Assembly: GCA_026018925.1 (NCBI GenBank)
Contig: JAKSZU010000032.1
Span: 868,001-932,000, forward strand
Direction of reading: 5' to 3'
Length of the DNA stretch: 64,000 nt
Source: Tupaia tana
Taxonomy: Eukaryota; Chordata; Mammalia; Scandentia; Tupaiidae
Positions 1 to 64,000 of the stretch are shown here, piece by piece. Every line of letters starts with the position of its first letter. Within the stretch, counting starts at the first letter, position 1. The notes below the pieces were generated by a model. That model ran no database searches, was not told the DNA's origin, and worked only from the letters and a program-made list of their open reading frames with translations. A program made the position numbers and the translations under genes.

Positions 1-168
1 TTACTCCCTCAAACTAAGTTCAAACCTAACCTAACCTGAAGCCTAAATCAAACCATACAGCTAACCCTAACCCTAGGCGGACACCTGAAGCTCAAACCCA
101 ACCCTAACCTGACCCTCACACTAACTCCAACCGTAACACTGATCCTAAAATTAACAGTAGCCCTATAC
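1..168 (+). repeat. First complete monomer (reference phase)
   Basis: This monomer sets the phase used here: TTACTCCCTC at 1, TTCAAACCTAACCTAACCTG from 20, the telomeric core at 61-77, CGGACACCTGAAGCTCAA following, and AACAGTAGCCCTATAC at the end. It departs from the usual form in three visible places: CATACAGCTAA instead of CATACACCTAA, CTGATCCTAAAATTAAC where CTGAACCGAAAACTAAC is usual, and CCCTATAC for CCCTAAAC. The half from GTAGCC to GCCTAA is well conserved through the window. The half from ACACCT to AACCG carries most differences that define monomer types. Confidence 0.9.
61..77 (+). promoter_or_regulatory. Intact telomeric core with two overlapping TRF-type motifs (example; recurs every monomer)
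   Basis: CTAACCCTAACCCTAGG holds two and a half perfect CCCTAA units. On the opposite strand it reads CCTAGGGTTAGGGTTAG, which has two overlapping matches to YTAGGGTTR, the known Myb-domain site of TRF1 and TRF2. It ends in the palindrome CCTAGG (an AvrII site), so an AvrII digest should give a 168-bp ladder. The core recurs in most monomers with scattered substitutions. Binding by telomere proteins is inferred from the motif only. Confidence 0.6.
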
Positions 169-1709
169 TTACTCCCTAAAACTAAGTTAAAACATAACCT
201 AACCTGAAGCCTATCTCAAACCATAGACCTAACCCTAACCCTAGGCGGACACCTGAAGCTCAACCCCAACCCTAGCCTGACCCTGACGCTATCTCCAACC
301 GTACAACTGAACTGAAAACTAACAGTAGCCCTAAACTTAATCCCTCAAACTAAGTTCAAACCTAACCTAACCTGAAGCCTAACTCAAACCATAGACCTAA
401 CCCTAACCCTAGGCGGACACCTGAAGCTCAACCCCAACCCTAACCTGACCCTGACGCTAACTCCAACAGTAACAGTTACCCGAAAACTAACAGTAGCCCT
501 AAACTTACTCCCTCAAACTAACTTCAAACCTAACCTAACTTGAAGCCTAACTCAAACCATAGACCTAACCCTAACCCTAGGCGGACACCTGTAACTCAAC
601 CACAACCCTAACCAGACCCTGACGCTATCTCCAACCGTAACACTGAACTGAAAACTAACAGTAGCCCTAAACTTACTCCCTCAAACTAAGTTCAAACCTA
701 ACCTAACCTGAAGCCTAACTCAAACCATAGACCTCACCCTAACCCAAGGCGGAAACCTGAAGCTCAACCCCAACCCTAACCTGACCCTGACGCTATCTCC
801 AACCGTAACACTGAACCGAAAACTAACAGTAGCCCTAAACTTACTCAATCAAACTAAGTTCAAACCTAACCTAACCTGAACCCTAACTCAAATCACAGAC
901 CTAACCCTAACCCTAGGCGGACACCTTAAGCTCAACCCCAACCCTAACCTGGCCCTGACGCTAACTCCAACCGTAACAGTTACCCGAAAAGTAACAGTAG
1001 CCCTAAACTTACTGCCTCAAATTAAGTTCCAACCTAACCTAACCTGAAGCCTAAATCAAACAATACACCTAACCCTAACCCTAGGCGGACACCTGAAGTT
1101 CAAACCCAACCCTAACCTAACCCTCACGCTAATTCCAACCGTACAACTGAACCGAAAACTAACAGTAGCCCTAAACTTAATCCCTCAAACTAAGTTCAAA
1201 CCTAACGTAACCTGAGGCCTAACTCAAACCATAGACCTAACCCTAACCCTAGGCGGACACCTGAAGCTCAACCCCAACCCTAACCTGACCCTGACGCTAA
1301 CTCCAACAGTAACAGTTACCCGAAAACTAACAGTAGCCCTAAACTTAATCCCTCAAACTAACTTCAAACCTAACCTAATTTGAAGCCTAACTCAAACCAT
1401 AGAACTAACCCTAACCCTAGGCGGACACCTGAAACTCAACCACAATCCTAACAAGAACCTGACGCTATCTCCAACCGTAACACTGAACCGAAAACTAACA
1501 GTAGCCCTAAACTTACTCCCTCAAACTACGTTCAATCCTAACCTAACCTGAAGCCTAAATGAAAACATAGACCTAACCCTAACCCTAGGCGGACACCTTA
1601 TGCTTAACCCCCACCCTAACCTGACCCTGACGCTTACTCCAACCGTAACAGTTAAATGAAAACTAACAGTAGCCCTAAACTGTCTCCCTCAAACTAAGTT
1701 CAAACCTAA

Positions 1710-2715
1710 ACTAACCTGAAGCCTCACTCAAACCACAGACCTAACCCTAACCCTAGGAGGACACCTAAAGCTCAACCCCAACCCTAACCTGACCCTCACG
1801 CTAACTCCAACCGTAACACAGTACCGAAAACTAACAGTAGCCCTAAACTTACTCCCTCAAACTAAGTTCAAACCTAACCTAACCTGAAGCCGAACTCAAA
1901 CAATAGACGTAAACCTAACCCTAGGCGGACACCTTAAGCTTGACCCTAACCCTAACCTGACCCTGACGCTTACTTCAACCGTAACAGTTAACCGAAAATT
2001 AACAGTAGCCCTAAACTTACTCCCTCAAACTAATTGCAAACCTAACCTAACATGAAGCCTAACTCAAACCACAGACCTAACCCTAACCCTAGGCAGACAC
2101 CTTAAGCTCAACCCCAACCCTAACCGGACCGTCACGCTAACTCCAAACGTAACATTGAACCGAAAACTAACAGTAGCCCTAAACTTATTCCCTCAAACTA
2201 AGTTCAATCCTAACCTAACCTGAAGCCTAAATGAAACCATAGACCTAACCCTACCCCTAGGAGGACACCTTAAGCACAACCCCAACCCTAACCTGACCCT
2301 CACGCTAACTCCAACCGTAACACTGAACCGAAAACTAACAGTAGCCCTAAACATACTCCCTCAAACTAAGTTCAAACCTAACCTAACCTGAAGACTAACT
2401 CAAACAATAGACCTAACCCTAACCCTAGCGGACACCTTAAGCTTGACCCCAACCCTAACCTGACCCTGACGCTTACTCCACCGTAACAGTTAACCGAAAA
2501 CTAACAGTAGCCCTAAACTTACTCCCTCAAACTAAGTTCAAACCTAACCTAACCTGAAGCCTAACTCAAACCACAGACCTAACCCTAACCCTAGGCGAAC
2601 ACCTTAAGCTTAACCCCAACCCTAACCGGACCCTCACGCTAACTCCAAACGTAACATTGAACCGAAAACTAACAGTAGCCCTAAACTTACTCCCTCAAAC
2701 TAAGTTCAATCCTAA
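1710..2715 (+). repeat. Three-monomer higher-order repeat, two copies
   Basis: Three monomer types follow each other twice: one with CTGACCCTCACGCTAAC, one with CAATAG and AAGCTTGAC, and one with CCACAG, ACCGGACC and ACATTGAACC. AAGCTTGAC falls at 1936 and 2439, an offset of 503 bp, which is three monomers less one base; the second copy lacks a G at about 2427 (CTAGCGGAC). The copies differ at many positions, so this duplication is older than those further right. A related block recurs near 2824 (GTTAAATGAA, also at 1651, offset 1,173 bp). Confidence 0.65.
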
Positions 2716-4249
2716 CCTAACCTGAAGCCTAAATGAAACCATAGACCTAACCCTAACCCTAGGCGGACACCTTATGCTTAACCCCCACCTAACCTGACCC
2801 TGACGCTTACTCCAACCGTAACAGTTAAATGAAAACTAACAGTAGCCCTAAACTGTCTCCCTCAAACTAAGTTCAAACCTAACCTAACCTGAAGCCTAAC
2901 TCAAACAATAGACCTAACCCTAACCTTAGGGGGACACCTTAAGCTTAACCCCAAACCTAACCTGACCCTGAGGCTAAATTGAACCGTAACACTGAACCAA
3001 AAACTAACAGTGGCCCTAAACTTACTCCCTCAAACTAAGTTCAGTCCTAACCTAACCTGAAGCCTAAATGAAACCATAGACCTAACCCTAACCCTAGGCG
3101 GACACCTTATGCTTAACCCCCACCCTAACCTGTCCCTGACGCTTACTCCAACCGTAACAGTTAAACGAAAACTAACAGTAGCCCTAAACTTACTCCCTCA
3201 AACTAAGTTCAAACCTAACCTAACCTGAAGCCTAAATCAAACCACACACCTAACCCTAACCCTAGGCGGACACCTTAAGCTCAACCCCAAACCTAACATG
3301 ACCCTGACGCTTACTCCAACCGTAACAGTTAACCGAAAACTAACAGTAGCCCTAAACTGACTCCCTCAAACTAAGTTCAAACCTAACCTAACCTGAAGCC
3401 TAAATCAAATCATAGACCTAACCCTAACCCTAGGCGGACACCTTATGCTTAACCCCCACCCTAACGGGACCCTGACGCTTACTCCAACTGTAACAGTTAA
3501 CCGAAAACTAACAGTAGCCCTAAACTTACTCCCTCAAACTAACTTCAAACCTAACCTAACCTGAAGCCTAAATCAAACCATACACCTAACCCTAACCCTA
3601 GGCGGACACCTTAAGCTCAACCCCAACCCGAACCTGGCCCTGACGCTAACTCCAACAGTAACAGTTACCCGAAAACTAACAGTAGCCCTAAACTTACTCC
3701 CTCAAACTAACTTCAAACCTAACCTAACTTGAAGCCTAACTGAAACCATAGACCTAACCCTAACCCTAGGCGGACACCTGAAACTCAACCACAACCCTAA
3801 CCAGACCCTGACGCTATCTCCAACCGTAACACTGAACCGAAAACTAAAAGTAGCCCTAAACTTACTCCCTCAAACTAAGTTCAAACCTAACCTAACCTGG
3901 ACCCTAACTCAAACCACAGACCTAACCCTAACCCTAGGCGGACACCTGAAGCTCAATCACAACCCTAACCTGACCCTGACGCTATCTCCAACTGTAACAC
4001 TGAACCGAAAACTAACAGTAGCCCTAAACTTACTCCCTCAAACTAAGTTCAAACCTAACCTAACCTGAAGCCTAACTCAAACCACAGACCTAACCCTCAC
4101 CCTAGGAAGACACCTTAAGCTCAACCCCAACCCTAACCTGACCCTCACGCTATCTCCAACCGAAACACTGAACCGAAAACTAACAGTAGCCCTAAACTTA
4201 CTCCCTCATACTAAGTTCAAACCTAACCTAACCTGAAGCCTAACTCAAA
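2716..4249 (+). repeat. Diverged satellite, no resolved higher-order repeat
   Basis: About nine ordinary monomers of mixed type. Those with TTATGCTTAACCCCC alternate with CTTAAGCTC types. A typical pair of types appears at about 3780-3900: CTGAAACTCAACCACAACCC followed by a monomer with CCTGGACCCTAACTC. No clear paralogous block of several monomers was found, and nothing other than satellite is visible. Confidence 0.7.
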
Positions 4250-4720
4250 CAATAGACCTAACCCTAACCCTAGGCGGACACCTTAAGCTTGACCCCAACC
4301 CTAATCTGACCCTGAGGATAATTTCAACCGTAACACTGAACCAAAAAATAAATAGGCCTAAACTTACTCCCTCAAACTAAGTTCAAACCTAACCTAACCT
4401 GAAGCCTAACTCAAACCATAGACCTAACCCTAACCCTAGGCGGACAGCTGAATCTCAAACCCAACCCTAACATGACCATGACGCTATCTCCAACCATAAC
4501 ACTGAACCAAAAACTAACAGTAGCCCTAAACTTACTCGCTCAAACTAAGTTCAAACCTAACCTAACCTGAAGCCTAAATCAAATCATAGACCTAACCCTA
4601 ACAATAGGCGGACATCTGAAGCTCAACCCCAACCCTAACCTGACCCTGACGCTATCTCCAACCGTAACTATGAACCGAAAACTAACAGTAGCCCTAAACT
4701 TACTCCCTCAAACTAAGTTC
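4250..4720 (+). repeat. Four-monomer cassette, partial copy 1
   Basis: First appearance of a recurring series: a CAATAG/AAGCTTGAC monomer ending in the short AAAAAATAAATAGGCCT form, then CTGAATCTCAAACCC with CATGACCATGACG, then CTCGCTCAAAC leading to ACAATAGGCGG. The fourth member (CCCTATCTCAAACCACAG, AGGTGGAC) is missing. It shares rare variants with 7.8-8.3 kb at an offset of about 3,522 bp. Confidence 0.7.
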
Positions 4721-5519
4721 AAACCTAACCTAACCTGATGCCTAAATCAAATGATAGACCTAACCCTAACCCTGGGCGGACACCTTAAACTTGACCCCAA
4801 CCCTAACCTGACCCTGACGCTTACTCCAACCGTAACAGTTAACCGAAAACTAACAGTAGCCCTAAACTGACTCCCTCAAACTAAGTTCAAACCTAACCTA
4901 ACCTGAAGCCTAAATCAAATCATAGACCTAACCCTAACTCAAGGCGGACACCTTATGCTTAACCCCCACCCTAACGTGACCCTGACGCTTACTCCAACTG
5001 TAACAGTTAACCGAAAACTAACAGCAGCCCTAAACTTACTCCCTCAAACTAACTTCAAACCTAACCTAACCTGAAGCCTAAATCAAACCATACACCTAAC
5101 CCTAACCCTAGGCGGACACCTGAAACTCAGCCACAACCCTAACCAGACCCTGACGCTATCTCCAACCGTAACACTGAACCGAAAACTAACAGTAGCCCTA
5201 AACTTACTCCCTCAAACTAAGTTCAAACCTAACCTAACCTGTACCCTAACTCAAACCATAGACCTAACCCTAACCCTAGACGGACACCTGAAGCTCAATC
5301 ACAAACCTAACCTGACGCTGACGCTATCTCCAACCATAACACTGAAACGAAAACTAACAGTAGCCCTAACTTACTCCCTCAAACTAAGTTCAAACCTAAC
5401 CTAACCTGAAGCCTAACTCAAACCACAGACCTAACCCTAACCCTAGGAGGACACCTTAAGCTCAACCCCAACCCTAACCTGACCCTCCCGCTATCTCGAA
5501 CCGAAAAACTGAACCGAAA

Positions 5520-6455
5520 ACTAACAGTAGCCCTAAACTTACTCCCTCAAACTAAGTTCAAACCTAACCTAACCTGAAGCCTAACTCAAACAATAGACCT
5601 AACCCTAACTCTAGGCGGACATCTTAAGCTTGACCCCAAACCTAACCTGACCCTGACGCTTACTCCAACTGTAACAGTTAACCGAAAACTAACAGTAGCC
5701 CTAAACTTACTCCCTCAATCTAAGTTCAAACCTAACCTAACCTGAAGCCTAACTCAAACAATAGACCTAACCCTAACACTAGGCGGACACCTAATTGTCC
5801 CCAACCCTAACCTGACCCTGAGGCTAAATTCAACCGTAACACTGAACCAAAAAATAAAATAGGCCTAAACTTACTCCCTCAAACTAAGTTCAAACCTAAC
5901 CTAACCTGAAGCCTAAATGAAAGCATAGACCTAACCCTAACCCTAGGCGGACACCTTATGGATAACCCCCACCATAATCTGACCCTGACGCTTACTCCAA
6001 CCATAACAGTTAAACGAAAACTAACAGTAGCCCTAAACTTACTCCCTCAAACTAAGTTCAAACCTATCCTAACCTGAAGACTAAATCAAACCATACACCT
6101 AACCCTAACCCTAGGCGGACACCTAAAGCTCAACCCCAAACCGAACCTGGCCCTGACGCTAACTCCAACAGTAACAGTTACCCGAAAACTAACAGTAGCC
6201 CTAAACTTACTCCCTCAAACTAACTTCAAACCTAACCTAACCTGAAGCCTAACTCAAACCATAGACCTAACCCTAACTCTAGGCGGACACCTGAAGCTCA
6301 ACCCCAACCCTAACCTGACCCTGACGCTATCTCCAACCGTAACACTGAACCGAAAACTAACAGTAGCCCTAAACTTACTCCCTCAAACTAAGTTCAAACC
6401 TAACCTAACCTGAAGCCTAACTCAAACCACAGACCTAACACTAACCCTAGGAGGA
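5520..6455 (+). repeat. Duplicated block, left member of the 3,184-bp pair
   Basis: Matches 8,700-9,635 over about 5.5 monomers. The diagnostic rare form CTAATTGTCC (a 3-bp loss relative to CTTAAGCTTGACC) lies at 5791 here and at 8974 in the partner. Both also share AAAATAAAATAGGCCT, TTATGGATAACCCCC, TAAGGTTCs' usual replacement CCTATCCTAACCTGAAGACT, and AACTCTAGGCGG. The spacing is 19 monomers less about 8-9 bases. The members differ at scattered single bases. Confidence 0.75.
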
Positions 6456-7779
6456 CACCTTAAGCTCAACCCCAACCCTAACCTGACCCTCACACTAACT
6501 CCAACCGTAACACTGAAACGAAAACTAACAGTAGCCCTAAACTTACTCCCTCAAACTAAGTTCAAACCTAACTAACCTGAAGCCTAACTCAAACAATAGA
6601 CCTAACCCCAACCCTAGGCGGACACCTTAAGCTTGACCCCTACCCTTACCTGACCCTGAGGCTAAATTCAACCGTAACACTGAACCAAAAAATACAATAG
6701 GCCTAAACTTACTCCCTCAAACTAAGTTCAAACCTAACATAACCAGAAGCCTAACTCAAATCATAGACCTAACGCTAACAATAGGCGGACACCTGAAGCT
6801 CAACCCCAACCCTAACCTGACCCTGACGCTATCTCCAACCGTAACACTGAACCGAAAACTAACAGTAGCCCTAAACTTACTCCCTCAAACTAAGTTCAAA
6901 CCTAACCTAACCTGAAGCCTAAATCAAATCATAGACCTAACCCTAACCCTGGGCGGACACCTTAAGCTCAACCCCAACCCTAACCTGACCTCCAGGCTAA
7001 CTCCAACCATATCACTGAAGCGAAAACTAAGAGTAGCCCTAAACTTACTCCCTCAAACTAAGTTCAATCCTAACCTAACCTGAAGCCTAAATGAAACCAT
7101 AGACCTAACCCTAACCCTAGGCAGACACCTTAACTTCAACCCCAAACCTAATCTGACCCTGACGCTTACTCCAACTGTAACAGTTAACCGAAAACTAACA
7201 GTAGCCCTAAACTTACTCCCTCAAACTAAGTTCAAACATAACCTAACCTGAAGCCTAAATCAAACCATACACCTAACCCTAACCCTAGGTGGACACCTTA
7301 AGCTCAACCCCAACCCTAACCTGGCCGTGACGCTAACTCCAATCGTAACAGTTACCCGAAAACTACCAGTAGCCCTAAACTTACTCCCTCAAACTAAGTT
7401 CAAACCTAACCTAACCTGAAGCCTAAATCAAACCATACACCTAACCCTAACCCTAGGCGGACACCTGAAGCTCAAACCCAACCCTAACCTGACCTTCACG
7501 CTAACTCCAAACGTAACACTGAACCGAAAACTAACAGTAGCCCTAAACTTACTCACTCAAACTAAGTTCAAACGTAACCTAACCTGGAGCCTAAATCAAA
7601 CCATGGACCTAACCCTAACCCTAGGCAGACACCTCAAGCTAACCCCAACCCTGACCTGACCCTGACGCTAACTCAAACCATAATATTGAACCGAAAACTA
7701 ACAATAGCCCTAAACTTACTCTCTCAAACTAAGTTCACACCTAACCTAACCTGAAGCCTAAATCAAACCATACACCTAA

Positions 7780-8330
7780 TCCTAACCCTAGGCGGACACA
7801 TTAAGCTTGACCCCAACCCTAACCTGACCCTGAGGCTAAATTCAACCGTAACACTGAACCAAAAAATACAATAGGCCTAAACTTACTCCCTCAAACTAAG
7901 TTCAAACCTAACCTAACCTGAAGCCTAACTCAAACCATAGACCTAACCCTAACCCTAGGCGGACACCTGAATCTCAAACCCAACCCTAACATGACCATGA
8001 CGCTATCTGCAACCATAACACTGACCCAAAATCTAACAGTAGCCCTAAACTTACTCGCTCAAGCTAAGTTCAAACTTAACCTAACCTGAAGCCTAAATCA
8101 AATCATAGACCTAACCCTAACAATAGGCGGACACCTGAAGCTCAACCCCAATCCTAACCTGACCCTGACTCTATCTCCAACCGTAACACTGACCCGAAAA
8201 CTAACAGTAGCCCTAAACTTACTCCCTCAAACTAAGTTCAAAACTATCCTAACCTGAACCCTATCTCAAACCACAGACCTAACCCTAACCCTAGGTGGAC
8301 ACCTTAAGCTCAACCCCAACCCTAACCTGA
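7780..8330 (+). repeat. Four-monomer cassette, copy 2
   Basis: Order is AAGCTTGACC with AATACAATAGGCCT (AGGCCT at 7873), CTGAATCTCAAACCC with CATGACCATGACG, CTCGCTCAAGC with ACAATAGGCGG, then CCCTATCTCAAACCACAG with AGGTGGAC. The fourth monomer then switches to the CTGACCTCCAGG type in place of ACCAGACATTCACG, so an exchange junction probably lies near 8,310-8,330. Confidence 0.75.
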
Positions 8331-8699
8331 CCTCCAGGCTAACTCCAACCATATCACTGAACCGAAAATTAAGAGTAGCCCTAAACTTACTCCCTCAAAC
8401 TAAGTTCAATCCTAACCTAACCTGAAGCCTAAATGAAATCATAGACCTAACCCTAACCATAGGCGGACACCTTATGGTTAACCCCCACCCTAACCTGACC
8501 CTGACGCTTACTCCAACCGTAACAGTTAAACGAAAACTAACAGTAGCCCTAAACTTACTGCCTCAAATTAAGTTCAAACCTATCCTAACCTGAAGACTAA
8601 ATCAAACCATACACCTATCCCTAACCCTAGGCGGACACCTTAAGCTAAACCCCAATCCGAACCTGGCCCTGACGCTAACTCCAACAGTAACAGTTACCC

Positions 8700-9635
8700 G
8701 AAAACTAACAGAAGCCCTAAACTTACTCCCTCAAACTAAGTTCAAACCTAACCTAACCTGAAGCCTAACTCAAACAATAGACCTAACCCTAACCCTAGGC
8801 GGACACCTTAAGCTTGACCCCAAACCTAACCTGACCCTGACGCTTACTCCAACTGTAACAGTTAACTGAAAACTAACAGTAGCCCTAAACTTACTCCCTC
8901 AATCTAAGTTCAAACCTAACCTAACCTGAAGCCTAACTCAAACAATAGACCTAACCCTAACACTAGGCGGACACCTAATTGTCCCCCACCCTAACCTGAC
9001 CCTGAGGCTAAATTCAACCGTAACACTGAACCAAAAAATAAAATAGGCCTAACCTTACTCCCTCAAACTAAGTTCAAACCTAACCTAACCTGAAGCCTAA
9101 ATGAAAGCATAGACCTAACCCTAACCCTAGGCGGACACCTTATGGATAACCCCCACCATAATCTGACCCTGACGCTTACTCCAAACGTAACAGTTAAACG
9201 AAAACTAACAGTAGCCCTAAACTTACTCCCTCAAACTAAGTTCAAACCTATCCTAACCTGAAGACTAAATCAAACCATACACCTAACCCTAACCCTAGGC
9301 GGACACCTAAAGCTCAACCCCAAACCGAAGCTGGCCCTGACGCTAACTCCAACAGTAACAGTTACCCGAAAACTAACAGTAGCCCTAAACTTACTCCCTC
9401 AAACTAAGTTCAAACCTAACCTAACCTGAAGCCTAATTCAAACCATAGACCTAACCCTAACTCTAGGCGGACACCTGAAGCTCAACCCCAACCCTAACCT
9501 GACCCTGACGCTATCTCCAACCGTAACACTGAACCGAAAACTAACAGTAGCCCTAAACTTACTCCCTCAAACTAAGTTCAAACCTAACCTAACCTGAAGC
9601 CTAACTCAAACCACAGACCTAACACTAACCCTAGG
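8700..9635 (+). repeat. Duplicated block, right member of the 3,184-bp pair
   Basis: Partner of 5,520-6,455. It carries CTAATTGTCC at 8974 and AATAGGCCTAACC (AGGCCT at 9045). The left edge falls just after AACAGAAGCCC at about 8,710; the right edge is where CTAGGCGGACACCTGAACC here replaces CTAGGAGGACACCTTAAG in the partner. Confidence 0.75.
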
Positions 9636-10299
9636 CGGACACCTGAACCTCAACCCCAACCCTAACCTGACCCTGACGCTATCTCCAACCGTAACACTGA
9701 ACCGAAAACTAACAGTAGCCCTAAACTTACTCCCTCAAACTAAGTTCAAACCTAACCTAACCTGAAGCCTAACTCAAACCACAGACCTAACCCTAACCCT
9801 AGGCGGACACCTTAAGCTCAACCCCAACCCTAACCTGGCCCTGACTCTAACTCCAACCGTAACAGTTACCCGAAAACTAACAGTAGCCCTAAACTTACTG
9901 CCTCAAACTAAGTTCCAACCTAACCTAACCTGAAGCCTAAATGAAACCATACACCTAACCCTAACCCTAGGCGCACACTTTAAGCTCAACCCCAACCCTA
10001 ACCTGGCCATGACGCTAACTCCAACAGTAACAGTTACCCGAAAACTAACAGTAGCCCTAAACTTACTCCCTCAAACTAAGTTCAAACCTAACCTAACCTG
10101 AAGCCTAACGCAAACCACAGACCTAACCCTAACCGTAGGCGGACACCTGAAGCTCAACCCTAACCCTAACTTGACCCTCACGCTAACTCCAAACGTAACA
10201 CTGAACCAAAAACTAACAGTAGCCCTAAACTTACTCCCTCAAACTAAGTTCAAACCTAACCTAACCTGAAGCCTAACTCAAACAATAGACCTACCCTAA
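9636..10299 (+). repeat. Ordinary satellite between duplicated blocks
   Basis: About four monomers of the CTTAAGCTC/CCTGGCC and ACCCTCACGC/CCAAACG types. One base is missing from the telomeric core at about 10,291 (AGACCTACCCTAACC). No gene or other element is visible. Confidence 0.7.
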
Positions 10300-12700
10300 C
10301 CCTAGGCGGACACCTTAAGCTCAACCCCAAACCTAACCAGACCCTGACACTTAATCCAACCATAACAGTTAACCGAAAACTAACAGTAGCCCTAAACTTA
10401 CGCCCTCAAACTAAGTTCAAACATAACCTAACCTGAAGCCTAAATAAAACCATACACCTAACCGTAACTCTAGGCGGACACCTTAAGCTCAACCCCAAAC
10501 ATAACCTGGCCCTAACGCTAACTCCAACCGTAACAGTTACCCGAAAACTAACAGTAGCCCTAAACTTACTCACTAAAACTAAGTTCAAACGTAACCTAAC
10601 CTGGAGCCTAAATCAAACCATGGACCTAACCCTAACCCTAGGCAGACACCTCATGCTAACCCCAACCCTAACCTGACCCTGACGCTAACTCCAATCATAA
10701 TACTGAACCGAAAACTAACAATAGCCCTAAACTTACTCCCTCACACTAAGTTCACACCTAACCTAACCTGAAGCCTAAATCAAACCATACACCTAACCCT
10801 AACACAAGGTGGACACCTTAAGCTCAACCCCTACCCGAACCTGGCCCTGACGCTAACTCCAACAGTAACAGTTACCCGAAAACTAACAGTAGCCCTAAAC
10901 TTTCTCCCTGAAACTAACTTCAAACCTAACCTAACTTGAAGCCTAACTCAAACCATAGACCTAACCCTAACCCTAGGTGGACACCTGAAACTCAATCACA
11001 ACCCTAACCAGACCCTGACGCTATCTCCAACCGTAACACTGAACCGAAAACTAACAGTAGCCCTAAACTTACTCCCTCAAACTAAGTTCAAACCTACCCT
11101 AACCTGGACCCTAACTCAAACCATAGACCTAACCCTAACCCTAGGCGGACACCGGAAGCTCAATCACAACCCTAACCTGACCCTGACGCTATCTCCAACC
11201 GTAACACTGAACCGAAAACTAATAGTAGCCCTAAACTTACTCCCTCAAACTAAGTTCAAATCTAACATAACCTGAAGCCTCACTCAAACCACAGACCTAA
11301 CCCTAACCCTAGGAGGACACCTTTAGCTCAACCCCAACCCTAACCTGACACTCACGCTAACTCCAACCGTAACACTGTACCGAAAACTAACAGTAGCCCT
11401 AAACTTACTCCCTCAAACTAAGTTCAAACCTAACCTAACCTGAAGCCTAACTCAAACAATAGACCTAACCCTAACCCTAGGCGGACACCTTCAGCTTGAC
11501 CCCAACCCTAACCTGACCCTCAGGCTAAATTCAACCGTAACACTGAACCAAAAATACAATAGGCCTAAACTTACTCCCTCAAACTAAGTTCAAACCTAAC
11601 CTAACCTGAAGCCTAACTCTAACCATAGACCTAACCCTAAGCCTAGGCGGACACCTGAATCTCAAACCCAACCCTAACTTGACCATGACGCTATCTCCAA
11701 ACATAACACTGAACCAAAAACTAACAGTAGCCCTAAACTTACTCGCTCAAACTAAGTTCAAACCTAACCTAACCTGAAGCCTAAATCAAATCATAGACCT
11801 AACCCTAACAATAGGCGGACACCTGAAGCTCAACCCCTACCCTAACCTGACCCTGACGCTATCTCCAACCGTAACACTGAACCGAAAACTAACAGTAGCC
11901 CTAAACTTACTCCGTCAAACTAAGTTCAAACCTAACCTAAACTGAACCCTATCTGAAACCACAGACCTAAGCCTAACCCTAGGTGGACACCTTAAGATCA
12001 ACCCCAACCCTAACCAGACATTCACGCTAACTCCAAATGTAACACTGAACCAAAAACTAACAGTAGCCCTAAACTTACTCCCTCAAACTAAGTTCAAACC
12101 TAACCTAACCTGAAGCCTAAATCAAATCATAGACCTAACCTTAACCCTAGGCGGACACCTTAAGCTCAACCCCAACCCTAACCTGACCTCCAGGCTAACT
12201 CCAACCATATCACTGAACCGAAAACTAAGACTAGACCTAAACTTACTCCCTCAAACTAAGTTCAATCCTAACCTAACCTGAAGCCTAAATGAAACCATAG
12301 ACCTAACCCTAACCCTAGGCGGACACCTTATGGTTAACCCCCACCATAACCTGACCCTGACGCTTACTCCAACCGTAACAGTTAAACGAAAACTAACAGT
12401 AGCCCTAAACTTACTCCCTCAAACCAAGTTCAAACCTATCCTAACCTGAAGACTAAATCAAACCATACACCTAACCCTAACCATAGGCGGACACCCCTAG
12501 CTAACCCCAACCCGAACCTGGCCCTGACGCTAACTACAACAGTAACAGTTACCCGAAAACTAACAGTAGCCCTAAACTTACTCCCTCAAACTAACTTCAA
12601 ACCTAACCTAACTTGAAGCCTAACTCAAACCATAGACCTAACCCTAACCCTAGGCGGACACCTGAAACTCAACCACATCCCTAACCAGACCCTGACGCTA
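10300..12700 (+). repeat. Duplicated block, left member of the 3.2/3.36-kb pair
   Basis: Matches 13,490-16,060. Shared rare forms include TTACGCCCTCAAAC, AAATAAAACCATACACC with GTAACTCTAGG or GTAATTCTAGG, CACTAAAACTAAG, AACGTAACCTAACCTGGAGC, CAAACCATGGACC, and later the full four-monomer cassette. The offset is 3,188 bp at the left and 3,357 bp further right, so the right member has one additional monomer (about 13,981-14,148) or this member lost it. Most differences are single bases. Confidence 0.85.
11440..12052 (+). repeat. Four-monomer cassette, copy 3 (complete)
   Basis: Complete series: CAATAG with AGCTTGACC and the short AATACAATAGGCCT form (AGGCCT at 11561), CTGAATCTCAAACCC with CTTGACCATGACG, CTCGCTCAAAC with ACAATAGGCGG, then CCCTATCTGAAACCACAG with AGGTGGAC and ACCAGACATTCACG. 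It lies inside the 10.3-12.7-kb duplicated block and repeats at 14.8-15.4 kb. Confidence 0.85.
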
Positions 12701-17455: not shown

Positions 17456-17747
17456 CAAACTAAGTTCAAACCTAACCTAACCTGAAGCCTAAATCAAATC
17501 ATAGACCTAACCCTAACACTAGGCGGACACCTTAAGGTCAACCCCAACCCTAACCTGACCTCCAGGCTAACTCCAACCATATCACTGAACCGAAAACTAA
17601 GAGTAGCCCTAAACTTACTCCCTCAAACTAAGTTCAATCCTAACCTAACCTGAAGCCTAAATGAAACCATAGACCTAACCCTAACCCTAGGCGGACACCT
17701 TATGGTTAACCCACACCATAACCTGACCCTGAGGCTAAATCGAACCG

Positions 17748-34075: not shown

Positions 34076-34079
34076 GACT

Positions 34080-53500: not shown

Positions 53501-54638
53501 TATCTCCAACAGTAACACTGAACCGAAAACTAACAGTAGCCCTAAACTTACTCCCTCAAACTAAGTTCAAACCTAACCTAACCTGAAGCCTAAATCAAAC
53601 CATACACCTAACCCTAACCCTAGGCGGACACCTGAAGCTCAAACCCAACCTTAACCTGATCCTCACGCTAACTCCAACCGTAACACTGATCCTAAAATTA
53701 ACAGTAGCCCTAAACTTACTCCCTAAAACTAAGTTAAAATCTAACCTAACCTGAAGCCTATCTCAAACCATAGACCTAACCCTAACCCTAGGCGGACACC
53801 TGAAGCTCAACCCCAACCCTAACCTGACCCTGACGCTATCTCCAACAGTAACACTGAACCGAAAACTAACAGTAGCCCTAAACTTACTCCCTCAAACTAA
53901 GTTCAATCCTAACCTAACCTGAAGCCTAAATGAAACCATAGACCTAACGCTAACCCTAGGCGGACAACTTATGCTTAACCCCCACCCTAACCTGACCCTG
54001 ACGCTTACTCCAACAGTAACACTGAACCGAAAACTAACAGTAGCCCTAAACTTACTCCCTCAAACTAAGTTCAAACCTACCCTAACCTGGACCCTAACTC
54101 AAACCATAGACCTAACCCTAACCCTAGGCGGACACCTGAAGCTCAATCACAACCCTAACCTGACCCTGACGCTATCTCCAACCGTAACACTGAACCGAAA
54201 ACTAACAGTAGCCCTAAACTGACTCCCTCAAACTAAGGTCAAACCTAACCTAACCTGAAGCCTAAATCAAATCATAGACCTAACCCTAACCCTAGGCGGA
54301 CAACTTATGCTTAACCCCCACCCTAACCTGACCCTGACGCTAACTCCAACCGTAACAGTTACCCGAAAATTAACAGTAGCCCTAAACTTACTCCCTCAAA
54401 CTAAGTTCAAACCTAACCTAACCAGAAGCCAAATTCAAACCATACACCTAACCCTAACCCTAGGCTGACACCTTAAGCTCAACCCCAACCCTACATGACC
54501 CTCACGCTAACTCCAACCGTAACACTGAACTGAAAACTAACAGTAGCCCTAAACTTACTCCCTCAAACTAAGTTCAAACCTAACCTAACCTGAAGCCTAA
54601 ATCAAACCATAGACCTAACCCTAACCCTAGGCGGACAC
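50570..54638 (+). repeat. Large recent duplication, copy B
   Basis: Partner of 46,335-50,106 with two further monomers at about 51,950-52,285. Private or partner-differing changes include CTCAGGCTTAAACC for CTCATGCTTAAACC, CCATCCATAAC, ATAAACCTTACAC, ACAACCATAAC, GATAAAATCAACC and CCCTACATGACCC. Confidence 0.93.
51720..52215 (+). repeat. CTTACTAC / CTCTAACTAAC cassette, copy 4 (truncated)
   Basis: CTTACTACAACC, then CTGACTCCC with ATGATAG and TTATGCTTAACCCCC, then CTCTAACTAACTTT with AACTTGGCCC. The usual fourth monomer (CAATAG/AAGCTTGACC) is replaced by a CCTGGAGCC monomer. The second and third members are the two monomers missing from copy A near 47,755. Confidence 0.75.
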
Positions 54639-54639
54639 C

Positions 54640-55415
54640 TTAAGCTCAACCCCAACACTAACCTGACCTCCAGGCTAACTCCAACCATATCACTGAACCG
54701 AAAACTAAGAGTAGCCCTAAACTTACTCCCTCAAACTAAGTTCAATCCTAACCTAACCTGAAGCCTAAATAAAACCATAGACCTAACCCTAACCCTAGAC
54801 GGACACCTTATGGTTAACCCCCACCATAACCTGACCTGACGCTTAATCCAACCGTAACAGTTAAACGAAAACTAACAGTAGCCCTAAACTTACTCCCTCA
54901 AACTAAGTTCAAACCTATCCTAACCTGAAGACTAAATCAAACCATACACCTAACTCTAACCCTAGGCGGACACCTTAATCTCAACCCCATCCCTAACCTT
55001 GCCCTGACGCTAACTCCAACCATAACAGTTTCCCGAAAACTAACCGTAGGCCCTAAACTTACTCCCTCAAACTAAGTTCATTCCTAAACTAACCTGAAGC
55101 CTAAATGAAACCATAGACCTAACCCTAACCCTAGGCGGACACCTTATGCTTAACCCCAACCCTAAACTGACCCTGACGCTTACTCGAACTGTTACAGTTA
55201 ACCGAAAACTAACAGTAGCCCTAAACTTACTCCCTCAAACTAAGTTCAAACCTAACCTAACCTGAAGCCTAACTCAAACAATAGACCTAACCCTAACCGT
55301 AGGCGGACACCTTAAGCTTGACCCCAACCCTAACCTGACCCTGAGGCTAAATTCAACCGTAACACTCAACCAAAAAATACAATAGGCTTAAACTTACTCC
55401 CTCAAACTAAGTTCA
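54640..55415 (+). repeat. Long-range duplicate of 37.68-38.46 kb
   Basis: Same rare forms as the partner about 16.95 kb to the left, with AATAGGCTTA in place of AATAGGCCTA and an inserted G at about 55,050 (CCGTAGGCCCTAAAC). Confidence 0.85.
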
Positions 55416-55899
55416 AACATAACCTAACCTGAAGCCTAAATCATACCATATACCTAACCCTAACCCTAGGCGGACACCAGAAGCTCAACCCCAACCCTAA
55501 CCTGACCCTGACGCTATCTCCAACCGTAACACTGAACCGAAAACTAACAGTAGCCCTAAATTTACTCCCTCAAACTAAGTTCAAACCTAACCTAACCTGA
55601 AGACTAACTCAAACCACAGACCTAACCCTAACACTAGGCGGACACCTTAAGCTCAACCCCAACCCTAACCGGACCCTCATGCTAACTCCAAACGTAACAC
55701 TGAACCGAAAACTAACAGTAGCCCTAAACTTACTCAATCAAACTAAGTTCAAACGTAACCTAACCTGGAGCCTAAATCAAACCATGGACCTAACCCTAAC
55801 CCTAGGCAGACACCTTAAGCTAACCCCAACCCTAACCTGACCCTGACGCTTACTCCAACTGTATCACTTAACCGAAAACTAACAGTAGCCCTAAACTTA
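55416..55899 (+). repeat. Ordinary satellite monomers
   Basis: About three monomers, including the AACGTAACCTAACCTGGAGC and CAAACCATGGACC type at about 55,752. Nothing else is visible. Confidence 0.65.
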
Positions 55900-58800
55900 C
55901 TCCCTCAAACTAAGTTCAATCCTAACGTAACCTGAAGCCTAAATGAAACCATAGACCTAACGCTAACCCTAGGCGGACACCTTATGCTTAACCCCCACCC
56001 TAACCTGACCCTGACGCTTACTCCAACTGTATCAGTTAACCGAAAGCTAACAGTACCCCTAAACTTACTCCCTCAAACAAACTTCAAACCTAACCTAACC
56101 TGAAGTCTAAATCAAACCATACACCTAACCCTAACCCTAAGCGGACACCTTAAGCTCAACCCCAACCCTAACCTGACCCTGACGCTAACTCCAACCGTAA
56201 CAGTTACCCGAAAATTAACAGTAGCCCTAAACTTACTCCCTCAAACTAAGTTCAAACCTAACCTAACCAGAAGCCAAATTCAAACCATACACCTAACCCT
56301 AACCCTAGGCTGACACCTTAAGCTCAACCCCAACCCTACCTGACCCTCACGCTAACTCCAACCGTAACACTGAACTGAAAACTAACAGTAGCCCTAAACT
56401 TACTCCCTCAAACTAAGTTCAAACCTAACCTAACCTGAAGCCTAAATCAAACCATAGACCTAACCCTAACCCTAGGCGGACACCTGAAGCTCAACCACAA
56501 CCCTAACCTGACCCTGACGCTATCTCCAACCGTAACACTGAACCGAAAACTAACAGTAGCCCTAAACTTACTCCCTCCAACTAAGTTCAAACCTAACCTA
56601 ACCTGAAGCCTAACTCAAACCACAGACCTAACTCTAACCCTAGGCGGACACCTTAAGCTCAACACCAACCCTAACCTAGCCCTGACGCTAACTGCAACCG
56701 TAACAGTTACCCGAAAACTAACAGTAGCCCTAAACTTACTCCCTCAAACTAAGTTCAAACCTGACCTAACCTGAAGCCTAAATCAAACAATACACCTAAC
56801 CCTAACCCTAGGCGGACACCTAAAGCTCAAACCCAACCCTAACCTGACCCTCACGCTAACTCCAACCGTAACACTGATCCTAAAATTAACAGTAGCCCTA
56901 AACTTACTCCCTCAAACTAAGTTCAAACCTAACCTAACCTGAAGCCTAACTCAAACCACAGACCTAACCCTAACCCTAGGCGGACTACTTAAGCTCAACC
57001 CCAAGCCTAACCGGACCCTCATGCTAACTCCAAACGTAACACTGAACCGAAAACTAACAGTAGCCCTAAACTTACTCCCTCAAACTAAGTTCAATCCTAA
57101 CCTAACTTGAAGCCTAAATGAAACCATAGACCTAACACTAACCCTAGGCGGACACCTTATGCTTAACCCCCACCCTAACCTGACCCTGACGCTTACTCCA
57201 ACTGTATCAGTTAACCGAAAACTAACAGTAGCCCTAAACATACTCCCTCAAACTAACTTCAAACCTAACCTAACCTGAAGCCTAAATCAAACCATACACC
57301 TAACCCTAACCCTAAGCGGACACCTTAAGCTCAACCCCAACCCTAACCTGACCCTGATGCTAACTCCAACCGTAACAGTTACCCGAATATTAACAGTAGC
57401 CCTAAACTTACTCCCTCAAAGTAATTTCAAACCTAACCTAACCAGAAGCCAAAATCAAACCATACACCTAACCCTACCCCTAGGCGGAAACCTTAAGCTC
57501 AACCCCAACCCTAAACTGACCCTCACGCTAACTCCAACCGTAACACTGAACTGAAAACTAACAGTACCCCTAAACTTACTCCCTCAAACTAAGTTCAAAC
57601 CTAACCTAACCTGAAGCCTAAATCAAACCATAGACCTAACCCTAACCCTAGGCGGACACCTGAAGCTCAACCACAACCCTAACCTGACCCTGATGCTATC
57701 TCCAACAGTAACACTGAACCGAAAACTAACAGTAGCCCTAAACTTACTCCCTCAAACTAAGTTCAAACCTAACCTAACCTGAAGCCTAACTCAAACCACA
57801 GACCTAACACTAACCCTAGGCGGACACCTTAAGCTCAACCCCAAACCTAACCCGACCCTGACGCTTACTCCAACCGTAACAGTTAACCGAAAACTAACAG
57901 TAGCCCTAAACTTACTCCCTCAAACTAAGTACAAACCTAACCTAACCTGAAGCCTAACTCAAATCACAGACCTAACCCTAACCCTAGGCGGACACCTTAA
58001 GCTAACCCCAACCCTAACCTGACCCTGACGCTAACTGAAACCATAGTACTGAACCAAAAACTAACAATAGCCCTAAACTTACTCCCTCAAACTAAGTTCA
58101 CACCTAACCTAACCTGAAGCCTAAATCAAACCATACACCTAACCCTAACCCTAGGCGGACACCTGAATCTCAAACCCAACCTTAACCTGACCCTCACGCT
58201 AACTCCAACCGTAACACTGATCCTAAAATTAACAGTAGCCCTAAACTTACTCCCTAAAACTAAGTTAAAATCTAACCTAACCTGAAGCCTATCTCAAACC
58301 ATAGACCTAACCCTAACCCTAGGCGGACACCTGAAGCTCAACCCCAACCCTAACCTGACCCTGACGCTATCTCCAACAGTAACACTGAACCGAAAACTAA
58401 CAGTAGCCCTAAACTTACTCCCTCAAACTAAGTTCAAACCTAACCTAACCTGAAGCCTAAATCAAACCATACACCTAACCCTAACCCTAGGCGGACACCT
58501 TAAGCTCAACCCCAACCCTAACCTGACCCTGACGCTAACTCCAACCGTAACAGTTACCCGAAAATTAACAGTAGCCCTAAACTTACTCCCTCAAACTAAG
58601 TTCAAACCTAACCTAACCAGAAGCCAAATTCAAAACATACACCTAACCCTAACCCTAGGCGGAAACCTTAAGCTCAACCCCAACCCTAAACTGACCCTCA
58701 CGCTAACTCCAACCGTAACACTGAACTGAAAACTAACAGTACCCCTAAACTTACTCCCTCAATCTAAGTTCAAACCTAACCTAACCTGAAGCCTAAATCA

Positions 58801-59100
58801 AACCATAGACCTAACCCTAACCCTAGGCGGACACCTGAAGCTCAACCACAACCCTAACCTGACCCTGACGCTATCTCCAACAGTAACACTGAACCGAAAA
58901 CTAACAGTAGCCCTAAACTTACTCCCTCAAACTAAGTTCAAACCTAACCTAACCTGAAGCCTAACTCAAACCACAGACCTAACACTAACCCTAGGCGGAC
59001 ACCTTAAGCTCAACCCCAAACCTAACCCGACCCTGACGCTTACTCCAACCGTAACAGTTAACCGAAAACTAACAGTAGCCCTAAACTGACTCCCTCAAAC
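55900..59100 (+). repeat. 1,175-bp (seven-monomer) higher-order repeat, about 2.7 copies
   Basis: ACCAGAAGCC occurs at 56266, 57441 and 58616, spaced exactly 1,175 bp each time (seven monomers less one base). CTAAGCGGACACC (about 56,138 and 57,313), CTGAAGCTCAACCACAACCC (about 56,486, 57,660, 58,838) and CCTAACCCGACCCTGACG (about 57,846 and 59,023) keep the same step. Middle monomers differ: 57.9-58.5 kb carries a block also found at 48.5-49.1 and 53.05-53.6 kb (CTGAAACCATAGTACTG here, CATAATACTG there), so later conversion or exchange has altered the unit. Confidence 0.85.
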
Positions 59101-60100
59101 TAAGTTCAAACCTAACCTAACCTGAAGCCTAAATCAAATCATAGAACTAACCCTAACCCTAGGCGGACACCTTAAGCTCAACCCCAACCCTAACCTGGCC
59201 CTGACGCTAACTCCAACAGTAACAGTTACCCGAAAACTAACAGTAGCCCTAAACTTACTCCCTAAAACTAAGTTCAAACCTAACCTAACCTGAACCCTAA
59301 CTCAAATCACAGACCTAACCCTAACCCTAGGCGGACACCTTAAGCTCAACCCCAACCCTAACCTGGCCCTGACGCTAACTCCAACCGTAACAGTTACCCG
59401 AAAACTAACAGTAGCCCTAAACTTACTGCCTCAAACTAACTTCAAACCTAACCTAACTTGAAGCATAACTCAAAACATAGACCTAACCCTAACCCCAGGT
59501 GGACACCTGAAACTCAACCACAACCCTAACCAGACCCTGACGCTATCTCCAACCGTAACACTGAACCGAAAACTAACAGTAGCCCTAAACTTACTCCCTC
59601 AAACTAAGTTCAAACCTACCCTAACCTGGACCCTAACTCAAACCATAGACCTAACCCTAACGCTAGGCGGACACCTGAAGCTCAATCACAACCCTAACCT
59701 GACCCTGACGCTATCTCCAACCGTAACACTGAACCGAAAACTAACAGTAGCCCTAAACTTACTCCCTCAAACTAAGTTCAAACCTAACCTAACCTGAAGC
59801 CTCACTCAAACCACAGACCTAACCCTAACCCTAGGAGGACACCTTAAGCTCAACCCCAACCCTAACCTGACCCTCACGCTAACTCCAACCGTAACACTGT
59901 ACTGTACCGAAAACTAACAGTAGCCCTAAACATACTCCCTCAAACTAAGTTCAAACCTAACCTAAACTGAAGCCTAAATCAAATCATAGACCTAACCCTA
60001 AACCTAGGCGGACACCTTATGCTTAACCCCACCCTAACCTGACCCTGACGCTTACTCCAACTGTAACAGTTAACCGAAAACTAACAATAGCCCTAAACTT
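59101..60100 (+). repeat. Satellite leading into the terminal repeat
   Basis: About six monomers. AAGCATAACTC with CCCCAGGTGGACAC at 59461 resembles the same pair in the terminal repeat (60808 and 62823). One base is lost near 60,029 (TTAACCCCACCC). Confidence 0.7.
59897..59906 (+). repeat. Five-base tandem duplication
   Basis: CACTGTACTGTACCG replaces the usual CACTGTACCG: CTGTA is present twice, at 59897-59901 and 59902-59906. This is one of the few insertions in an array where small losses predominate. Confidence 0.9.
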
Positions 60101-62115
60101 ACTGCCTCAAACTAGGTTCCAACCTAACCTACCCTGAAGCCTAACTCAAACCATAGACCTAACCCTAACCCTAGGCGGACAGCTGAAGCTCAACCCCAAA
60201 CCTAACCTGACCGTGACACTATCTCCAACCGTAACACTGAACCGAAAACTAACAGTAGCCCTAAACTTACTCCCTCAAACTAAGTTCAAACCTAACCTAA
60301 CCTGAAGCCTAACTCAAACCACAGACCTAACCGTAACCCTAGGCGGACACGTTAAGCTCAACCCCAACCCTATCCGGACCCTCACGCTAACTCCAAACGT
60401 AACATTGAACCGAAAACTAACAGTAGCCCTAAACTTACTCCCTCAAATTAAGTTCAATCCTAACCTAACCTAAACCCTAAATGAAACCATAGACCTAAGC
60501 CTAACCCTAGGCGACACCTTATGCTTAACCCCCACCCTAACTTGACCCTGAGGCTTACTCCAACCGTAACAGTTAAACGAAAACTAATAGTAGCCCTAAA
60601 CTTACTCCCTCAAACTAAGTTCAAACCTAACCTAACCTGAAGCCTAACTCAAACTATAGACCTAACCCTAACCCTAGGTGGACACCTAAAGCTCAACCCC
60701 AACCCTAACCTGGCCCTGACGCTAACTCCAACAGTAACAGTTACCCGAAAACTAATAGTAGCCCTAAACTTACTCCCTCAAACTAACTTCAAACCTAACG
60801 TAACTTGAAGCATAACTCAAAACATAGACCTAACCCTAACCCCAGGTGGACACCTGAAACTCAACCACAACCCTAACCAGACCCTGACGCTATCTCCAAC
60901 CGTAACACTGAACCGAAAACTAACAGTAGCCCTAAACTTACTCCCTCAAACTAAGTTCAAACCTACCCTAACCTGGACCCTAACTCAAACCATAGACCTA
61001 ACCCTAACCCTAGGCGGACACCTGAAGCTCAATCACAACCCTAACCTGACCCTGACGCTATCTCCAACCGTAACACTGAACCGAAAAGTGACAGTAGCCC
61101 TAAACTTACTCCCTCAAACTAAGTTCAAACCTAACATAACCTGAACCCTAACTCAAATCACAGACCTAACCCTAACCCTAGGCGGACACCTTAAGATCAA
61201 CCCCAACCCTCACATGGCCCTGACGCTAACGCCAACCGTAACAGTTACCCGAAAACTAACAGTAGCCCTAAACTTACTCCCTCAAACTAAGTTCAAACCT
61301 AACCTAACCTGAAGCCTAACTCAAACCACAGACCTAACACTAACCCTAGGCGGACACCTTAAGCTCAACCCCAAACCTAACCCGACCCTGACGCTTACTC
61401 CAACCGTAACAGTTAACCGAAAACTAACAGTAGCCCTAAACTGACTCCCTCAAACTAAGTTCAAACCTAACCTAACCTGAAGCCTAAATCAAATCATAGA
61501 ACTAACCCTAACCCTAGGCGGACACCTTATGCTTAACCCCCACCCTAACCTGACCCTGACGCGTACTCCAACTGTAACAGTTAATCGAAAACTAACAGTA
61601 GCCCTAAACTTACTCCCTCAAACTAACTTCAAACCTAACCTAACCTGAAGCCTAAATCAAACCATACACCTAACCCTAACCCTAGGCGGACACCTTAAGC
61701 TCAACCCCAACCCTAACCTGGCCCTGACGCTAACTCCAACAGTAACAGTTACCCGAAAACTAACAGTAGCCCTAAACTTACTCCCTAAAACTAAGTTCAA
61801 ACCTAACCTAACCTGAAGCCTAACTCAAACCATAGACCTAACCCTAACCCAAGGCGGAAACCTGAAGCTCAACCCCAACCCTAACCTGACCCTGACGCTA
61901 TCTCCAACCGTAACACTGAACCGAAAAGTGACAGTAGCCCTAAACTTACTCCCTCAAACTAAGTTCAAACCTAACCTAACCTGAACCCTAACTCAAATCA
62001 CAGACCTAACCCTAACCCTAGGCGGACACCTTAAGATCAACCCCAACCCTCACATGGCCCTGACGCTAACTCCAACCGTAACAGTTACCCGAAAACTAAC
62101 AGTAGCCCTAAACTT
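60101..62115 (+). repeat. 2,015-bp (twelve-monomer) higher-order repeat, copy 1
   Basis: ACTGCCTCAAACTAGGTTCC lies at 60101 and 62116, AAGCATAACT at 60808 and 62823, and CCGAAAAGTG at 61081 and 63096, all 2,015 bp apart (twelve monomers less one base). The missing base, CTAGGCGACACC at about 60,508 and 62,523, is shared. CCGAAAAGTG also recurs at 61921, 840 bp after 61081, so part of the unit was itself made by a five-monomer step. Confidence 0.93.
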
Positions 62116-64000
62116 ACTGCCTCAAACTAGGTTCCAACCTAACCTACCCTGAAGCCTAACTCAAACCATAGACCTAACCCTAACCCTAGGCAGACAGCTG
62201 AAGCTCAACCCCAAACCTAACCTGACCGTGACGCTATCTCCAACCGTAACACTGAACCGAAAACTAACAGTAGCCCTAAACTTACTCCCTCAAACTAAGT
62301 TCAAACCTAACCTAACCTGAAGCCTAACTCAAACCACAGACCTAACCGTAACCCTAGGCGGACACGTTAAGCTCAACCCCAACCCTATCCGGACCCTCAC
62401 GCTAACTCCAAACGTAACATTGAACCGAAAACTAACAGTAGCCCTAAACTTACTCCCTCAAATTAAGTTCAATCCTAACCTAACCTGAACCCTAAATGAA
62501 ACCATAGACCTAAGCCTAACCCTAGGCGACACCTTATGCTTAACCCCCACCCTAACTTGACCCTGACGCTTACTCCAACCGTAACAGTTAAACGAAAACT
62601 AATAGTAGCCCTAAACTTACTCCCTCAAACTAAGTTCAAACCTAACCTAACCTGAAGCCTAACTCAAACTATAGACCTAACCCTAACCCTAGGTGGACAC
62701 CTAAAGCTCAACCCCAACCCTAACCTGGCCCTGACGCTAACTCCAACAGTAACAGTTACCCGAAAACTAATAGTAGCCCTAAACTTACTCCCTCAAACTA
62801 ACTTCAAACCTAACGTAACTTGAAGCATAACTCAAAACATAGACCTAACCCTAACCCCAGGTGGACACCTGAAAATAAACCACAACCCTAACCAGACCCT
62901 GACGCTCTCTCCAACCGTAACACTGAACCGAAAACTAACAGTAGCCCTAAAATTACTCCCTCAAACTAAGTTCAAACCTACCCTAACCTGGACCCTAACT
63001 CAAACCATAGACCTAACCCTAACCCTAGGCGGACACCTGAAGCTCAATCACAACCCTAACCTGACCCTGACGCTATCTCCAACCGTAACACTGAACCGAA
63101 AAGTGACAGTAGCCCTAAACTTACTCCCTCAAACTAAGTTCAAACCTAACATAACCTGAACCCTAACTCAAATCACAGACCTAACCCTAACCCTAGGCGG
63201 ACACCTTAAGATCAACCCCAACCCTCACATGGCCCTGACGCTAACTCCAACCGTAACAGTTACCCGAAAACTAACAGTAGCCCTAAACTTACTCCCTCAA
63301 ACTAAGTTCAAACCTAACCTAACCTGAAGCCTAACTCAAACCACAGACCTAACACTAACCCTAGGCGGACACCTTAAGCTCAACCCCAAACCTAACCCGA
63401 CCCTGACGCTTACTCCAACCGTAACAGTTAACCGAAAACTAACAGTAGCCCTAAACTGACTCCCTCAAACTAAGTTCAAACCTAACCTAACCTGAAGCCT
63501 AAATCAAATCATAGAACTAACCCTAACCCTAGGCGGACACCTTATGCTTAACCCCCACCCTAACCTGACCCTGACGCGTACTCCAACTGTAACAGTTAAT
63601 CGAAAAGTAACAGTAGCCCTAAACTTACTCCCTCAAACTAACTTCAAACCTAACCTAACCTGAAGCCTAAATCAAACCATACACCTAACCCTAACCCTAG
63701 GCGGACACCTTAAGCTCAACCCCAACCCTAACCTGGCCCTGACGCTAACTCCAACAGTAACAGTTACCCGAAAACTAACAGTAGCCCTAAACTTACTCCC
63801 TAAAATTAAGTTCAAACCTAACCTAACCTGAAGCCTAACTCAAACCATAGACCTAATCCTAACCCAAGGCGGAAACCTGAAGCTCAACCCCAACCCTAAC
63901 CTGACCCTGACGCTATCTCTAACCGTAACACTGAACCGAAAAGTGACAGTAGCCCTAAACTTACTCCCTCAAACTAAGTTCAAACCTAACCTAACCTGAA
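62116..64000 (+). repeat. 2,015-bp higher-order repeat, copy 2 (cut by window edge)
   Basis: First 1,885 bp of the second copy; the array continues beyond the window. Differences from copy 1 seen by eye include GGCAGACAGCTG, CTGAAAATAAACC and CGCTCTCTCC, and AACTCCAACC for AACGCCAACC. CCGAAAAGTG recurs at 63936, again 840 bp after 63096. Confidence 0.93.

Follow-up and report, generated by a model that had tools for sequence, protein, structure and literature searches.

Satellites usually appear without a visible ancestor, and the nucleosome-length centromere satellite of primates, alpha-satellite, has a unit near 170 bp and forms megabase arrays. Telomere-like DNA inside chromosomes has been described in several forms. 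The available text of a review (PMC6410037) presents heterochromatic interstitial telomeric sequences (het-ITS), for example those of the Chinese hamster, as large blocks of telomeric repeats, and interstitial telomere blocks in general as unstable and heterochromatic; according to the accessible part of another source, telomeric repeats disfavour nucleosomes (PMC8122249). Satellites with the telomere hexamer as their base unit were already reported in the 1970s. In a brown lemur, Eulemur collaris, the consulted sections of PMC13228423 describe TTAGGG arrays (Ec6) that were co-opted as megabase centromere arrays with an average size of 6.22 Mb. Here we analyzed a stretch of 64,000 nucleotides from Tupaia tana (positions 868,001–932,000 of contig JAKSZU010000032.1, hereafter C453, in a 2.95-Gb assembly), which is referred to below as the window. 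It consists of a satellite with a 168-bp unit that reads throughout as degenerate telomere hexamers and that probably derives, over its entire length, from telomeric DNA located inside chromosomes.

Results

The 168-bp unit keeps a telomere register

A single array spans positions 1–64000 (period 168, 381.2 copies, 89% matches according to Tandem Repeats Finder). The consensus built from 380 monomers is 168 bp long, the mean identity of the monomers to it is 0.938, and the spacing between monomers is exactly 168 bp in 331 of 380 cases. This long head-to-tail array of a common unit, present in many copies, is satellite DNA. Its + strand contains 36% A, 35% C, 19% T and 10% G. A first-pass annotation of the window had cut the unit into 28 hexamers, of which 22 were reported to have A at position 4, a count reproduced on our consensus, and 15 to share at least four positions with CTAACC; on the rebuilt consensus the latter number is 16.

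The register of the consensus was compared with three controls, namely composition shuffles, dinucleotide shuffles and second-order Markov simulations (5000 sequences each). The identity at lag 6 is 0.530, against a mean of 0.300 for both types of shuffle and 0.325 for the Markov simulations, and (CTAACC)28 matches 107 of the 168 consensus positions, against control means of 63–67. Neither value was reached by any of the 5000 sequences in any control, and the 22 occurrences of A at position 4 were reached by one second-order simulation and by none of the shuffles. When periods from 2 to 42 were scanned, z was 11.6 at period 6, between 5.3 and 10.0 at its multiples, and at most 1.4 elsewhere. 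Thus, the autocorrelation test that had been proposed with the annotation shows a periodicity beyond that of an A+C-rich composition, and the 6-bp telomere register of the 168-bp unit is real.

As the annotation had also stated, the whole monomer can be read in this way: the 28 hexamers lie in one register and both halves of the unit match the telomere repeat (58 of 84 and 49 of 84 positions). We further scored 60 hexamer cycles, preselected by their ungapped match, with a cyclic model that allows insertions and deletions. The CCCTAA cycle (written AACCCT) ranked first with a log-likelihood of −348.3, compared to −362.7 for the next cycle. In the gapped parse the unit resolves into 28 hexamers, each monomer having two insertions and two deletions, and 73% of the positions match. 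Under one and the same model, the telomere match amounts to 81–89% for degenerate telomere tracts on contigs C111, C66 and C110, to 70–73% for the satellite and to 53% for the Markov control. The features of the window to which the text refers are the following.

1..64000, + strand (the C-rich, CCCTAA-like strand): satellite array of 168-bp head-to-tail monomers
1..168, + strand: first monomer, whose 28 hexamers each read as degenerate CTAACC in this register
61..75, + strand: CTAACCCTAACCCTA, the core of the first monomer that is closest to the telomere repeat; the opposite strand carries two overlapping YTAGGGTTR sites
25..36, + strand: block CCTAACCTAACC in the first monomer, where the hexamer register makes a 5-bp step that counts, in the gapped parse, as one of the two deletions per unit

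These data make it highly improbable that the telomere likeness is a coincidence, arisen as slippage on an unrelated hexamer built an A+C-rich satellite. Such a history would agree with the ungapped comparison, in which CTAAAC fits one position better than CTAACC (108 versus 107, which we count as a tie), and with the fact that the parent tract was not identified. The first rank of CCCTAA once insertions and deletions are allowed argues against it, as do the degenerate TTAGGG arrays of the same genome, one of which touches the satellite.

Degenerate telomere arrays and a junction in the same genome

Degenerate TTAGGG arrays were found on C111 at 23.748–23.810 Mb and at 43.586 Mb, and on C66 at 237–264 kb. 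Near position 2460 of the sampled piece L034, on C110, degenerate TTAGGG/TTAGGGTACGGG DNA gives way directly to the 168-bp unit, without visible sequence in between; this tract is about 1.07 kb long and starts some 440 bp past a repeat with a 132-bp period. The telomere origin of the satellite is therefore strongly supported in general by the degenerate arrays and the C110 junction, and unproven in detail.

Other observations concern the surroundings of such tracts. The tract at C111:43.586 Mb (L031:6318-7570) is 1.25 kb long, matches at 89%, and lies near L1 sequence and copies of a tRNA-like short interspersed element (SINE, a label given by eye); a coding fragment at 43.58 Mb matches human LINE-1 ORF2 with an E-value of 1e-38, which points to a mammalian genome. 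On C66, the pieces L037 and L038 (237001-243000 and 259001-265000) contain telomere-like repeats with periods of 25, 31 and 37 bp (6n+1), interleaved with a 36-bp repeat of the GACACGTGTGTCA type. At C508:10102-12315 and C337:264430-269139, exact telomere runs of 36 bases recur at about 215–220 bp (or double this distance) and at 2334 bp; these are other repeats that carry telomere blocks.

The register appears to be inherited

On the G-rich strand of the window, YTAGGGTTR, which we take to be the TRF1/TRF2 site, occurs 829 times (2.18 per monomer), where about 30 sites are expected under a Markov-1 model. In addition, a 25-base stretch of this strand has a G4Hunter score of 1.56, near the 1.50 of the telomere (0.66 for the whole monomer), and the available text of PMC6410037 reports TRF1/TRF2 on long interstitial telomeric tracts. 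The 6-bp register might accordingly be held by selection, with TRF1/TRF2-like proteins or a G-quadruplex still acting on an internal platform for telomere proteins. We regard this as very unlikely. The YTAGGGTTR sites are expected from descent alone, a run of four G3 tracts is absent from the consensus, and the positions that match the telomere are no better conserved among the monomers than the other positions (0.939 versus 0.936, p-value = 0.66), for which reason the register looks inherited rather than selected. Judged from the sequence, continued selection for telomere-protein binding would not be needed, and nothing found suggests that such binding preserves the register.

Variation within the array

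The full 168-bp consensus has one exact occurrence in the assembly and is for this reason a summary of the monomers rather than a common form. A stable higher-order repeat was not seen in the window: over monomer lags 1–59 the mean identity averages 0.897 and peaks at 0.9035 (lag 19), and similarity between monomers follows local, changing lags only. Pieces at the array edge beside a gap in C453 have 17–25% of their 12-mers in common with the consensus, compared to 36–52% further in, which is what homogenisation predicts. In one 2-kb sample (C453:3000001-3002000, L023), a seven-monomer segment is repeated at lag 1174 with identity 1.0, representing a recent local duplication.

We also considered a duplication of a half-unit (168 = 2 × 84). 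Shuffling of the hexamer order gave p-values of 0.0008 for lag 78 (uncorrected; 0.02 over 14 lags) and 0.0175 for the half-to-half alignment. Since the column-resampled and HMM-simulated (hidden Markov model) nulls give 0.05 and 0.16, this duplication is suggestive only and we do not claim it.

No open frames of at least 250 codons are present in the window, and no Rfam family reached its gathering threshold in positions 1–10000. An exact 26-mer of the satellite had 0 occurrences in viral and prokaryote collections, which possibly do not include records near the genome of the window.

Adjacent monomers differ mostly by transversions (1858 transitions and 4666 transversions, ratio 0.40; 0.50 for single-monomer variants). 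One pair of SINE copies on C111, taken for contrast, shows 18 transitions versus 1–2 transversions, and the ratio in other tandem repeats of the genome ranges from 0.06 to 1.5, many of these values resting on small counts. The excess of transversions may be a trait of satellites in this genome.

Abundance and placement of the satellite

The assembly contains 88,539 + 85,391 = 173,930 exact copies of the 26-mer, and the approximately 381 monomers of the window contain 195. If the window is representative, this extrapolates to about 340,000 monomers or 57 Mb, which is 1.9% of the assembly. A 148-mer of the consensus was found in 41 copies on 18 contigs.

The extent of individual arrays was estimated by sampling. 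On C453, satellite was found at 36 of the 43 places sampled, and the seven exceptions (other DNA in 5, N in 2) all fall at 1.764–1.786 Mb; the contig holds two arrays of opposite orientation, together about 4.1 Mb. At the flip in orientation (approximately 1.764–1.787 Mb), some 22–24 kb of non-satellite DNA and N are located, and a scaffold join is possible there. On C864 (228.35 Mb), all 18 satellite samples out of 39 lie at 186.40–187.56 Mb (20 others are other DNA and 1 is N), indicating an interstitial block of about 1.2 Mb at 41 Mb from the contig end. On C111 (90.46 Mb), one sampling round of 11 samples included 3 with satellite, at 89.88–89.95 Mb and about 0.5 Mb from the contig end. 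On C608 (1.716 Mb), satellite was found in 15 of 21 samples, from 0.10 to 1.70 Mb, which corresponds to an array of about 1.6 Mb. Six samples of this contig remain. Its first 200 bases resemble, by eye, a second repeat of about 312 bp; two samples hold other DNA and another holds N. A further sample changes from N to TTAGGG near 1.710 Mb, and the final 200 bases consist of TTAGGG, one unit being a variant, so that the terminal 5.6 kb has TTAGGG at each of its two sampled ends. The arrays on C453, C608 and C864 reach the size of the large blocks, up to megabases, that characterize het-ITS. The window itself is not a telomere proper: it lacks CTAACCCTAACCCTAACC and is internal to C453, the TTAGGG at a contig end being that of C608.

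The TTAGGG end of C608 past the array and the position of the C111 array could indicate a subtelomeric satellite that carries islands of telomere sequence owing to its place beside chromosome ends. This is quite unlikely, as telomere identity extends through both halves of the unit instead of being confined to islands and the C864 block is so distant from the end of its contig.

The approximately 312-bp satellite has 229,956 exact hits to a 28-mer in the assembly, or about 70 Mb if each hit represents a 312-bp unit. Given this amount, the genome has at least two major satellites, the 168-bp unit among them, and the 312-bp satellite, a candidate centromere repeat, may equal that unit in abundance. 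It was seen at listed places on C3, C7 and C9 and in part of the sampled contig starts L086-L101 (the starts being judged by eye), C7 also showing a spacing of about 134 bp. A further GC-rich satellite with a period of about 129 bp is present on C1 (L041), and the same motif is found at the starts of C10 and C130 (L082, L084).

The 168-bp repeat might itself be a functional centromere satellite, that is, telomere DNA turned into a nucleosome-length, kinetochore-bearing repeat. Its unit length near that of nucleosome-scale centromere satellites, its megabase arrays, the interstitial block on the 228-Mb contig C864 and the lemur TTAGGG centromeres of PMC13228423 are all compatible with this view, which on sequence grounds we nevertheless hold to be rather unlikely. 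The 312-bp satellite is a competitor for this role and appears, by eye, at the start of C608, away from the TTAGGG end. A CENP-B box, which is not universal, was not found, the best match having 5 of 9 core bases and lying below the shuffle mean of 6.3. Inverted repeats of at least 10 bases are absent from positions 1–336 of the window, the C-rich strand folds no better than shuffles, and the stable higher-order structure sought in the window was not seen. We would entertain only tentatively the path by which TTAGGG gave degenerate arrays, these gave short-period telomere-like repeats, and these gave a 168-bp satellite that forms, now or until recently, the kinetochore repeat on some chromosomes. 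If true, the genome would preserve this whole path and offer a natural test of the descent of centromere DNA from telomere DNA.

Discussion

Based on the present data, the 168-bp repeat is a major satellite whose entire unit probably goes back to interstitial telomeric DNA and that likely serves as constitutive heterochromatin, either pericentromeric or on short arms. In this view, interstitial telomere repeats in a heterochromatic block would have decayed by point changes and a few small insertions and deletions. Once distinct enough, a stretch of 28 hexamers could have become the unit of unequal exchange or of rolling-circle re-insertion, and this unit would then have spread to many contigs and been homogenised, whereby the decayed register was fixed. 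A role in constitutive heterochromatin appears most likely, perhaps between the 312-bp satellite and the telomere on acrocentric chromosomes. The interstitial C864 block and the near-end positions on C111 and C608 could fit a centromeric or pericentromeric placement. The first-pass annotation had proposed that a degenerate TTAGGG tract supplied the unit, which froze and was afterwards amplified at 168 bp. Its telomeric part agrees with our findings; the order of freezing and amplification is a conjecture, and a particular parent tract was not identified.

Several observations, besides the tie between CTAAAC and CTAACC, weigh against this explanation. A search for a parent tract with clear specific homology, in which the unit was compared with 30 order-shuffled copies of itself on 21 degenerate-array targets, was negative: the real unit had no more than a modest advantage (z from −0.5 to 3.4, and from 0.7 to 3.3 on the telomere-like strand), scoring above all 30 shuffles in 6 of the 21 targets. 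Only one of the two edges read base by base joins a telomere tract: the C110 edge does, whereas the satellite edge on C33 abuts other DNA abruptly. Monomers at the edges are not more telomere-like, with values of 0.656–0.684 for four pieces taken at edges and 0.704 for monomers next to the C110 tract, compared to 0.694 (sd 0.009) for blocks of the window. The departures of the satellite from TTAGGG are richer in G (C to G 0.10, T to G 0.11) than those of the C111 and C66 tracts (0.012–0.035), a difference that is tempered by the C110 tract, where T to G is 0.20. The orientation of the C111 array is the reverse of that of a telomere, its G-rich strand running away from the closest contig end, and only 1 of 20 sampled contig starts is 168-bp satellite. 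Finally, a gap parts the satellite from the TTAGGG on C608 and the right-hand side of the C864 block borders on an N gap, so that scaffold joins could mislead.

The descent from interstitial telomeric DNA invites comparison with the systems described at the outset. Alpha-satellite is alike in unit length and in its megabase arrays, and the 168-bp repeat has no detected CENP-B box. The snake satellite PFL-MspI, known to us by description without its sequence, has the same 168-bp length and was set aside as a relative. As far as the 1970s work is described, its satellites are hexamer-based as here and a 168-bp unit is not mentioned. Ec6 has a 6-bp unit, in which the authors, in the consulted sections of PMC13228423, could not distinguish higher-order units, and its centromere function is backed by immunoFISH (immunostaining combined with fluorescence in situ hybridization) in a close relative, whereas that of the 168-bp repeat is hypothetical. 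Like the het-ITS of PMC6410037, as far as that text presents them, it forms large telomere-like blocks inside chromosomes. Where those are described as telomeric repeats, however, the blocks here have a fixed monomer of 28 decayed hexamers that is in register throughout and 64% identical to the pure repeat without gaps (107 of 168 positions) or 73% matching with gaps. Among the matches listed in a search of the open literature, to which subscription papers and repeat libraries did not belong, we found no fixed monomer of about 168 bp made throughout of degenerate telomere hexamers.

For this satellite, the unit's own sequence allows its ancestor to be named, and this ancestor persists in decayed forms within the assembly. 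This points to interstitial telomere blocks as a source from which complex satellites can arise, through decay, the rise of a nucleosome-scale exchange unit and fixation by homogenisation, and it bears on the telomere-repeat centromeres of a brown lemur by showing what such arrays might become. Telomere-derived blocks and hexamer-based satellites being already known, our comparison suggests that the fixed 168-bp monomer, built over its whole length from decayed hexamers, is a new variation on them.

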